Source of the DNA: Candidatus Caribbeanibacter nitroreducens
GTDB lineage: Bacteria > Gemmatimonadota > Gemmatimonadetes > Palauibacterales > Palauibacteraceae
NCBI GenBank assembly: GCA_947581645.1
Contig: CANPVF010000177.1
Location: 1-42,874, forward strand
Length of the DNA: 42,874 nucleotides
Direction: 5' to 3'
A program made the position numbers and the translations under genes. This document shows, in pieces, positions 37,707 through 42,138 of this stretch. Within the stretch, counting starts at the first letter, position 1, and each line of letters begins with the position of its first letter. Below the pieces are notes generated by a model that was not told where the DNA came from, did not search any database, and saw only the letters and a list, made by a program, of their open reading frames with translations.

Positions 37707-39143
37707 CTACAGCGGCCGGAAGCGGGCCTGGAAGAACCGGAGGAAGTCCGGCTCGTAGGTCATCTCCAGGCCGCTGGCCTCCTCCCGGCGGTCCCAGACC
37801 GCCTTCACCGCCTCGGCGGTGACGTCCATGTGGGCCTGCGTGTACACGCGGCGCGGGATCGCCAGCCGCACCAGCTCCAGCTCCGGGTGCCGATGCCCGC
37901 CGGTCTCCGGGTCCCGGCCGGCGCTGACGATGCCCCGCTCCATGGAGCGGACTCCGGACTCCAGGTAGAGCTGCGCCGCCAGGGACTGCGCCGGGAACTT
38001 CTCCTGGTCCATCTCCGGGTAGAAGCGCTTCGCGTCCAGGTAGACGGCGTGTCCCCCCACCGGCGTCACGATGGGGATGCCCCAGTCCTGGAGCAGTCCG
38101 CCCAGGTAGCGCACCTGGCCCACCCGCGCCCGTACGTAGGCGTCCTCCATGGACTCGCCGATGCCGATGGCCAGGGCCTCCATGTCGCGTCCCGCCATGC
38201 CGCCGTAGGTGTGGAGACCCTCGTAGACCACCACCAGGTTCCGGAGGCGGTCGAAGAGGTCCTCGTCGTCCACGGCCACCCAGCCGCCGATGTTCACCAG
38301 GTGGTCCTTCTTGGACGACATCCAGGCGCCGTCGGCGAGGCTGCAGATCTCGGCGACGATGTCCGCCACGGGCGTGTCCCCCCAGCCCTCCTCCCGCTCC
38401 TGGATGAAGTAGGCGTTCTCCACCAGGCGGGCCGCGTCCAGATAGATGGGGATCCCGTGCCGGTCGCAGAGCTCCCGCAGCTCGCGGACGTTCCGCATGC
38501 TCACCGGCTGTCCGCCGGCCATGTTCACGGTCCCGGCGAGGCTCATGTAGGGGATCCGCTCGGGCCCCACCCGGTCGATGAGGTCCGAGAGCTTCTGGAG
38601 GTCGACGTTGCCCTTGAAGGGGTGGTCGCTGGCGGGGTCGTGGGCGTCGTCGATCACCACGTCCACGAAGCGGGCGCCCGCCATCTCCTGGTGCAGGCGG
38701 GTCGTGGTGAAGTACATGTTGCCGGGCACCACGTCGCCCTCGTCCACGGCCACCTGGTTCAGCAGGTGCTCGGCGCCCCGTCCCTGGTGAGTGGGGACGA
38801 CGTGCGGGAAGCCGTAGTACTTCTCAACCGCGTCCTCCAGGTGGTAGAAGTTCCGGCTCCCGGCGTAGGCTTCGTCGCCCATCATCAGCCCCGACCACTG
38901 CCGGTCGCTCATGGCGCTGGTGCCGCTGTCGGTCAGGAGGTCGATGTACACCTTCTCGGACGGGAGGAGGAAGGTGTTGTAGCCGGCCTCCTCCAGGGCC
39001 TCCCGCCGCTCCTCGCGGGAGGGCACGCTCAGCGGCTCGACCATCTTGATGCGCCAGGGCTCGGCCCACGACCGGCGGCCGAATTGCTGGCCCATGGTGC
39101 GGGGCGACTCGTCCGTCCGTGGCTCGTCGTGCGGCTCGTTCAT
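37707..39143 (-). CDS. tpl: Tyrosine phenol-lyase
   Basis: 478 aa, PLP-dependent beta-eliminating lyase. It splits L-tyrosine to phenol, pyruvate and ammonia (reversible). With an offset of 22 from Citrobacter numbering (recalled, not computed), the key residues line up: Tyr93, Thr146, Asn207, Asp236, Arg239, PLP-lysine Lys279 ([12 protein letters not shown]), Arg403 (SMERG), Arg426 and Phe470. Thr146 and Arg403 correspond to the pair that contacts the phenol hydroxyl. Tryptophanase has Asp and Ile there, so the tyrosine enzyme is favoured. A Leu replaces Met288. The N-terminus is about 22 residues longer than usual; an internal ATG (Met17) is an alternative start. The ATG overlaps the upstream hydrolase stop (ATGA), so it is the last gene of a minus-strand operon. 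Confidence 0.9.
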
Positions 39144-40141
39144 TCCTCGTCGTCCCGATGTTCGGATTGGGTGGCCCGGACCAGGAAGAAGCCGTCCGAG
39201 CCGAGCTTCTGATAGAGCGGCAGGAAGAGGAGGCCGGACTGCGGGGACGGGATCTCGCCCGTCCGGTCCTCGGCCAGGATGTCCCCCTCCAGCACGCGGT
39301 CGAAGTTCTTCCAGCCCGGCTTCATCCGAAAGCCGTTGCCCGGCGTGATCCCGTGTCGGTACCGGACCTCGAGGTGCTTCGGCACCCCCTCCGACGCCCG
39401 GGCGAGCAGGGCACGGCCGTCCCTCACGCGGGGCTCGTCCTTCTCCACCAGACCCGCCGACGCGAGGGCCGTCCACACCACCGCCCGCAGGCGCGTCACC
39501 GAATCGGAGGCCTCGTGCTGACCCGCTTCTGCCGTCAGCGACGCGAAGCCCCGGCGACACGCCCAGTCGGCGAGCATTCCCGGCAGGTGCCGCTCCAGCC
39601 CCCGGACGTGCGGGAAGGGGAACGCGCTGGAGAAGCGGCGGCAGGCCTCGCGGCGCCCCACGATCCCGAACGGCGGGCTCTCGCTGGAGGTGGTGTGCAG
39701 GTCCACCAGGTACGCGGGCCCGCGGCGGTCCTCCTCCAGGGTGGCCTCCAGCGAGCGGAGGAGACGCTTCTGCTCCACCCCCTCCGGCCCGAGCTCGGGA
39801 CGCACCTCCGCGTCCGCCTGCAGCTCGTCCGTGCGGGAGGTGGTCCACTGCCGGTTCAGGTCGCGGTCCCGGTACCGGACGGACGCCTGCAGCGCCCCCA
39901 GGTTGCCGGCCAGCGCCACCAGCCGGCCGCGGACCCGGGGAGCATCGTCGCCCCGGAGCTCTTCCAAGACGCCCTCGAGGGCGCGAACGCCGGCGGGCTC
40001 GTTCCCGTGCACGCCGCCGACGCAGACCAGGAGCGGGCCGGGGTCGTCGCCCCGGTGCGTGCCGATCAGCCCCGCGCCGTCGCCGTCCGCGCTCCGATCC
40101 CGGGGCGCCGAATCGTCCTTCTCGTCCGAACGGGCTCCCAT
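39140..40141 (-). CDS. Succinylglutamate desuccinylase/aspartoacylase-family zinc hydrolase
   Basis: 333 aa, M14-like deacylase family. Zinc ligands are His45 and Glu48 ([10 protein letters not shown]) and His149 (VDLHTTSSE). The substrate-binding DLNR element is Asp94-Arg97, and Glu205 (AEAGQHE) is the likely catalytic base. The family cleaves N-acyl bonds to amino acids, such as N-acetylaspartate or N-succinylglutamate. About 35 extra residues at the N-terminus are charged and probably disordered. None of the other arginine succinyltransferase (ast) genes are nearby, so AstE itself is unlikely. It lies between the GCS2-CBS gene (TGATG overlap) and tpl (ATGA overlap). Confidence 0.87.
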
Positions 40142-42138
40142 CAGTCCTTCCGGCTCCCGGCTTCCTCGCCCTGCGCCGGTGCCGGCTCCTCCGGGGCGGC
40201 TTCCTCGAAGAGGTGAGCGGCGACGCTGGCCAGCTGGTCCCCGGTGACGAGACCGACCAGGCGGCCCTCGCTCACCACCGGCAGGCAGCCCACCTCACGG
40301 TCGTTCATGAGGCCGATGGCCTCGGCGGTGGCCGTCTCCGGGGAGATGGCCACGATGTCGCGCTCCATGACCTCGTACACGGGAATGGGGTCCTCGGCGT
40401 CGCCGGCGTCGTCCCCGGCCTCTCCGTCCCCCCGCTCCTCCAGCACCCGGTCGACGAGGCTGCGGGTGACCAGGCCCACCAGCCGCTCCTCGCGGTCCTC
40501 GATGGGCACGTATTTCACGTCGTGCCACTCCATGATCTCGACGACCAGGTCCAGCGGCTCCTCCTCGTTCACCGCCAGGACGTCGGTGTCCATGAACTGC
40601 TCCACCCGCTGGTAGGTGGCCGGCCACCCGCCGGCCTCCTCCAGGCGTGCGGTCTCCCACTCGTGCACCGGACGTCCGGTCTTCTGCCGCTTCACCGCCC
40701 CCAGGGTGACGGCGGTGAGGCGCTGCTCGGCGGCCGCCGCGTCGTCGTTCTCGCCGGACTTCCGCATCTCCGCCAGGGAGACCAGGATCCAGTCGGAGCC
40801 CGTGCGTCCGGTCTCGACCCGCTCCCGGATCACGCTCAGGTAGCGGTCGGCGTCCTGCAGGGAGATGCCCGACGACTCGAGCCCCTTGCGGGCCAGGGGG
40901 AGGAGCTGCTCGGCCACCAGGTCGGCGGCACGCATGGTCTCTCCGCCCTCCCACGTGAACTGGGCGTCCAGTCCCAGCTGGGCCGCCGCGAAGAAGTTCC
41001 GGCGGACGTCGTCGAAGTCGAAGGCCTCGCGCACGTCCTCGTACCGGTCCGCCATGCCGCTCATGAGCCCCAGCCAGAACGTGGCGTTGGCCATCTCGTC
41101 CAGGGACGTGGGGCCGGAGGGGAGGACGCGGTTCTCGATGCGCAGGTGCGGCCGGCCGTCCGAGATGCCGTAGCAGGGGCGGTTCCAGCGGTAGACGGTG
41201 CCGTTGAACAGCGTCAGCGCCTTGAGGTCGGGTGCCTCGCCGCGCCCGATCTTCGCGAAGGGCTCCTCCTCCACGTCCGCCGTCATGAGGACCGGGAACC
41301 GGGCGAAGTCCTCACGGAAGATCTCCAGCACGGAGTCCTCGACCCAGCGTCGCCCGAAGTGGACGCGGGGGCGGCTCTCGCGGAGGTGCGGCGAGGCGCT
41401 CCGGGTCTCCAGCGCCTGGCGGAAGAGGGCGATGCGGGTCTCCTTCCACAGCCGCCGCCCGAAGAGCAGGGGAGAGTAGACGGAGGCGGCCAGGACCGGC
41501 GCGGTGGTGACCTGCGCGATGTTGTACAGCCGGGCGAACTCGTCGCGGTCCACCTGGAAGTGGACCTGGAAGCTGGTGTTGGCCGACTCCAGCATCACGT
41601 TGTCGTGCTGGACCAGGAGCTCGTCGGCGCCCTTGATGTAGAACTCGTAGGGGCGGCCCCGGAGCCGGTTCAGCGCCTCGTTCAGGGCCCGGTACCGCTC
41701 CTTGGGCGTCATGTTGTCCAGCGTCAGGTCCGACTTCCGCAGCGTGGGGAGGATACCCGTCAGGAGGAGGTCGGCCCCGTGGCCCTCCGCCGCCTCCTGC
41801 ACCCGCTCCAGGAGGCCGGCCAGCTGGTCCTCCATGCGGCTCAGGCAATCGCCCTCGAAGCGCATGGGATCCAGGTTGCACTCCAGGTTGTAGCGGCCCA
41901 GCTCGGTGACGACCCGTTCGTCCTCGATGTCCTCGAGGATGGCCATGTTCCTGGGGGCCGGCCGCCCGTGCTCGTCCACCAGGACCAGCTCCTGCTCGGC
42001 CCCGATGCGCCGGACGCCGGACTCGACGGTGCCCCCGTCGAGCATCTCCTCCAGGGCCCGGAGGTCTTCCAGGACCCGGGTCGTGAAGCGGCGGAGTCGC
42101 TGCCCCTCGAGCTCGGCCTGCACCTGCGGCTCGGACAT
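40141..42138 (-). CDS. GCS2-family glutamate-cysteine-ligase-like enzyme fused to paired CBS domains
   Basis: 665 aa. Residues about 40-460 form a GCS2-type carboxylate-amine ligase. The metal/ATP-site [11 protein letters not shown] has Glu48 and Glu50. [14 protein letters not shown] has Asn187, Gln191 and His193, and [14 protein letters not shown] has Arg333, Glu335 and Arg337. GCS2 proteins use ATP to form a gamma-glutamyl or similar amide. A 50-residue linker leads to two CBS domains (about 512-567 and 587-643, each ending LVGLVT), which commonly bind adenine nucleotides and control the attached enzyme. The acceptor is unknown. It is the first gene of a three-gene operon. The ATG at 42138 lacks a clear ribosome site. 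Confidence 0.85.

Follow-up and report, generated by a model that had tools for sequence, protein, structure and literature searches.

The window analysed here, 42,874 nucleotides long, corresponds to contig C177 in a draft genome of 2.96 Mb (199 contigs; completeness 96%). Towards its end three genes follow one another on the minus strand, encoding a ligase (gene 1, 42138..40141, 665 aa), a hydrolase (gene 2, 40141..39140, 333 aa) and a tyrosine phenol-lyase (TPL; gene 3, 39143..37707, 478 aa), with a further gene on either side:

42318..42872, minus strand: GT4-type glycosyltransferase, upstream, cut by the window end and outside the pair; syntenic in family f1 (family match; synteny)
40141..42138, minus strand: GCS2-fold carboxylate-amine ligase with a C-terminal CBS pair (Pfam GCS2 and CBS; model; invariant catalytic-type residues)
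40236..40617, minus strand: CBS pair, ligase residues ~508-635, lacking the usual adenosine-binding Asp signature (Pfam; homologue alignment)
39140..40141, minus strand: AspA/AstE-type zinc amidohydrolase of the M14 superfamily, short form (PF24827; invariant residues; model)
37707..39143, minus strand: TPL, between the hydrolase and a convergent class-V aminotransferase-like gene (TIGR02618; diagnostic residues)
36467..37657, plus strand: class-V aminotransferase/cysteine-desulfurase-like gene, convergent and outside the pair (domain match; synteny)

The TGA of the ligase and the ATG of the hydrolase have one base in common, and the hydrolase stop and the TPL start overlap by four bases (ATGA); coordinates, strand and overlaps of this trio are as the initial annotation had described them, and its family assignments for all three genes (GCS2, CBS, AstE_AspA_cat and TIGR02618) score over the respective cut-offs. 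A single transcript for all three genes is likely, and no promoter-like or terminator-like sites were found in the region by a scan that is weak in DNA so G+C-rich. In several family members (L039, L041-L044 and L116) the hydrolase has the class-V aminotransferase-like gene directly next to it. Further out, the window and family members have in common the glycosyltransferase at one end and, at the opposite end, an apolipoprotein N-acyltransferase, a GFO/IDH/MocA oxidoreductase, a class-III aminotransferase and FtsK. A chimeric contig was considered and is unlikely, because the outer genes on both sides match those of family members and TPL joins the hydrolase through a clean ATGA overlap.

The ligase matches the Pfam GCS2 family with 34.8 bits (cut-off 21) and carries two CBS domains (67.1 against a cut-off of 24), and the GCS2 match is over the cut-off in 38 of its 39 homologues. 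Its structural model, of low confidence in two stretches (165-175 and 224-257), matches YbdK (1r8g, TM 0.77 by target length) and the plant glutamate-cysteine ligase (2gwc, TM 0.65 by target length). The GCS2-typical residues G46-x-E48-x-E50, E86, N88, Q191-x-H193-x-Q195, R235 and R333-I-E335-x-R337 are invariant among the 39 homologues. The protein has the fold and the GxExE and ExR-type motifs of YbdK and glutamate-cysteine ligase, and the ATP-dependent amide ligase chemistry of the GCS2 family would be expected of it, but it differs from these enzymes in its low similarity to the family model, its C-terminal CBS pair and its genomic link to an AspA-type hydrolase. It also stands outside every glutamate-cysteine ligase equivalog in NCBIfam, falling far under the cut-offs (28 bits against 409 and 19 against 463). 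A second, YbdK-like GCS2 protein is encoded in the same genome on contig C121.

Neither CBS domain of the window ligase contains the adenosine/ribose-binding Asp signature G-h-h-T/S-x-x-D, the corresponding positions reading T-R-S-L and T-G-D-Q. CBS1 generally lacks this Asp among the 39 homologues, whereas CBS2 keeps it in 36 of them and has Gln at that position in the window copy. Apart from the window copy, the T-E-x-D signature of CBS2 is degenerate in just two of the 39 homologues. The CBS2 Asp being lost, adenylate control or energy sensing by the CBS pair is doubtful in this genome, which weakens the earlier proposal of such a role; the statement that all checked key active-site residues were present stands for the mapped catalytic residues and fails for this adenosine-binding position.

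The hydrolase matches AstE_AspA_cat (PF24827) with a score of 54.7 against a cut-off of 25. Its motifs H45-G-N-E48, R89, D94-x-N96-R97, D147-x-H149 and E205 are conserved among 32 homologues, with the zinc ligands of the H-x-x-E...H type and the catalytic Glu (H45, E48, H149 and E205) invariant in all 32 sequences, and in a partial alignment the first motifs, including those of the zinc ligands, align with AstE and human aspartoacylase. The model (pLDDT 89.7) is closest in fold to AstE (1yw6) and EutE (6twm), while murine aminoacylase 3 with N-acetyl-tyrosine ranks 26 among the fold matches. The protein has the M14-type zinc amidohydrolase fold and the metal and acid residues of AstE, aspartoacylase, EutE (DoeB) and CphZ, but is well under the NCBIfam equivalog cut-offs for succinylglutamate desuccinylase (34.6 bits against 305.65) and aspartoacylase (40.8 against 180), and lies outside any arginine, ectoine or cyanophycin pathway context. 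A C-terminal tail of ~70-80 aa present in same-family copies (L034, L036 and L039-L044) is absent from the window hydrolase; short forms also occur in family f6. No viral carriers of the hydrolase were found. In the f1 g6 genomes, most of which lack the ligase, the gene ahead of the hydrolase is pterin-4a-carbinolamine dehydratase-like (identified in L112); two loci of this group, L114 and L116, also show the hydrolase converging on the aminotransferase-like gene found in the window.

Ligase and hydrolase are linked well beyond this genome. Among 149 relatives (the window's own genome included), the ligase was detected in 50 and the hydrolase in 58, with both in 44, the ligase only in six, the hydrolase only in 14 and neither in 85, giving an odds ratio of 44 (p = 5e-19; Fisher test, uncorrected for kinship). 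Of the 40 ligase loci read in relatives, 30 have the hydrolase immediately behind the ligase and on its strand; the other ten lack this adjacency, and in one of them (L047) the contig ends. A wider scan of 84,980 species genomes returned at least 590 stretches encoding a ligase relative; in the best 80 of these, each from a named species, the hydrolase was directly downstream in 33, whose records are labelled Gemmatimonadota, Acidobacteria, Planctomycetota, Balneolaceae, Calditrichaeota, Polyangiaceae and Binataceae (a few genomes are counted both among the 40 loci and among the best 80). Order, strand and co-occurrence are therefore conserved for these two genes, in agreement with the initial annotation as far as the pair is concerned. 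A clear unlinked hydrolase was found in only seven of the 33 named genomes without a hydrolase beside the ligase. The ligase occurs without a detectable hydrolase in G006, and the hydrolase without the ligase in most f1 g6 genomes. The ligase can thus act without this partner, and the link is strong, not obligatory. Nitroreductase, SRAP and others, considered as further conserved partners of the pair, proved to be lineage-specific neighbours only.

The third gene is, judged by its sequence, a genuine tyrosine phenol-lyase, scoring 734.7 bits against the curated TIGR02618 cut-off of 720.7. It carries the TPL-diagnostic residues T146, M401, R403 and F470 together with the PLP lysine K279 and R426 (the Arg404 site); the sites that distinguish TPL from tryptophanase are Thr124, Met379, Arg381 and Phe448 of the solved enzymes. 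A tryptophanase-like paralogue in L108 has D/A/I/H at the four diagnostic sites. Compared with solved TPLs (1c7g, 1tpl and 9j3u) the active-site residues are conserved, but Met288 is replaced by Leu, and it is solely in its genomic context that the window enzyme is unusual. The same genome encodes a tryptophanase-like paralogue (G000:C130:3252-4610; 52% identity; 557.9 bits, under the TPL cut-off). Two tryptophanase/TPL-like domains lie in tandem within one frame of ~890-980 aa in G010 (G010:C1:2518291-2520939) and also in G004, G035, G037, G038 and G040; their identity with the window TPL is ~50% and 40%.

Close TPLs were detected in 49 of 395 genomes of a phylum-wide sample (the window's included), and 16 other relatives encode one at 62-72% identity, yet the three-gene order, whose absence from close relatives had been set beforehand as the refuting outcome, was found in no other genome read. 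None of 120 ligase loci (the 40 read in relatives plus the best 80 of at least 590, a few genomes being counted twice) has a TPL beside the ligase or the hydrolase within the flanks examined, and neither ligase nor hydrolase lies near the TPL in 37 other TPL loci read or in 15 longer stretches that include some of these loci. In the five other genomes of the same family that encode a TPL (G001, G003, G015, G018 and G021), TPL and ligase are on different contigs. Across the 149 relatives the ligase is present in 6 of the 17 genomes with TPL and in 44 of the 132 without (odds ratio 1.09, p = 1), and TPL and hydrolase showed no co-occurrence either. The search for a conserved TPL partner gene in relatives returned mixed neighbours (an MFS transporter, carbonic anhydrase, short-chain dehydrogenase and peptidase).

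The trees likewise separate TPL from the ligase: in the TPL tree the window sequence sits among those of families f5 and f7 (99/98) and away from a group formed by TPLs of its own family (100/100), whereas the window ligase falls among those of its own family; the hydrolase tree gave no firm placement of the window copy. In family members such as L043 the distance from the hydrolase to the convergent aminotransferase-like gene is ~50 bases, a place that is filled in the window by TPL, itself ending 49 bases from that gene. From this comparison, in which the relatives all belong to other genera, TPL is most likely a later insertion between the hydrolase and the aminotransferase-like gene. Selection for co-expression may still act on a new arrival with a 4-base overlap. 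As a member of a common pathway, the role first given to it, TPL finds no backing in its neighbours, its distribution or its tree, and the case illustrates that tight overlaps in a single genome are no proof of a common pathway.

Enzymes of the GCS2 family use ATP to activate a carboxylate, which is then joined to an amine; the substrates that AspA/AstE-type enzymes hydrolyse are N-acyl amino acids and amides related to them. We consider it probable that the locus combines a ligase-hydrolase module for an amide-linked metabolite with a later-inserted, independent tyrosine-catabolic gene. The ligase would use ATP to activate a carboxylate, most likely in the side chain of glutamate or of a comparable acid (glutamate is a reasonable guess by analogy with the family), and couple it to an amine, and the zinc hydrolase would act in the opposite direction on an amide of the kind made by the ligase, the pair making and taking apart, or editing, one small amide-linked metabolite. 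Regulation would come through the fused CBS pair, with adenylates tuning the ligase in most homologues and probably less or not at all here. TPL would have entered later, probably onto the transcript of the pair, and is predicted to work alone, converting tyrosine to phenol, pyruvate and ammonia. Of the make-and-release system of three enzymes originally proposed, the conserved ligase-hydrolase pair is retained and TPL, adjacent in no other locus read, is not; an aromatic amino-acid conjugate has TPL adjacency as its sole support. More tentatively, the CBS-GCS2 ligase and the AspA-type hydrolase could constitute a widespread and undescribed cycle that makes and breaks an amide-linked metabolite (e.g. 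a gamma-glutamyl compound), adenylate-controlled in most carriers.

The tight overlap of all three genes, the intact TPL residues and the aminoacylase 3 match would also fit a genuine pathway of all three enzymes in this lineage, in which the ligase would make an N-acyl or glutamyl conjugate of tyrosine, the hydrolase would release the amino acid and TPL would degrade it. We regard this as quite improbable and rejected it as the main reading: the arrangement is in no other genome read, TPL co-occurs with neither of the other two genes and differs in history, and the 44 relatives with both ligase and hydrolase are mostly without TPL. We give just as little credence to a plain glutamate-cysteine ligase, serving glutathione or gamma-glutamylcysteine synthesis beside an unrelated downstream hydrolase, against which stand the distant equivalog scores, the second, YbdK-like GCS2 protein of the genome and the strong genomic link to the hydrolase, despite the GCS2 domain match and the fold match to glutamate-cysteine ligases. 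A marginally better, though still unlikely, alternative is that ligase and hydrolase lack a common substrate, their proximity being due solely to shared regulation or translational coupling. Consistent with this, G006 and most of the 33 named genomes that lack an adjacent hydrolase encode the ligase but no detectable hydrolase, and most f1 g6 genomes have the hydrolase and no ligase; against it, the adjacency is maintained over several phyla, beside varied other neighbours.

By sequence, each enzyme belongs to a known superfamily, and ligase and hydrolase stand outside the characterised subgroups that were compared. Iyer et al. reportedly predicted amidoligase-peptidase gene pairs in 2009, which likewise set an amide ligase gene beside that of a peptidase or amidase undoing the bond. 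Searches for the ligase-hydrolase pair, its architecture and the family identifiers returned no relevant paper in the literature covered, which includes few subscription journals, and the novelty of the pair is therefore not certain; within that literature, the ligase relatives found in the wider scan have neither a described function nor a described link to the hydrolase. Tyrosine is among the commonest putative auxotrophies of the order in the Palauibacterales paper, the main text of which, in a term search, made no mention of phenol or aspartoacylase (PMC10469786).

The conserved pair is directly testable, the product of the ligase being a candidate substrate of the hydrolase. In three Balneolaceae (L155:7965-12971, L161:8001-13023 and L182:7965-12976) two tandem CBS-GCS2-like ligase copies lie directly before the hydrolase, which overlaps the second copy, an arrangement that suggests two ligase specificities with one hydrolase serving both.
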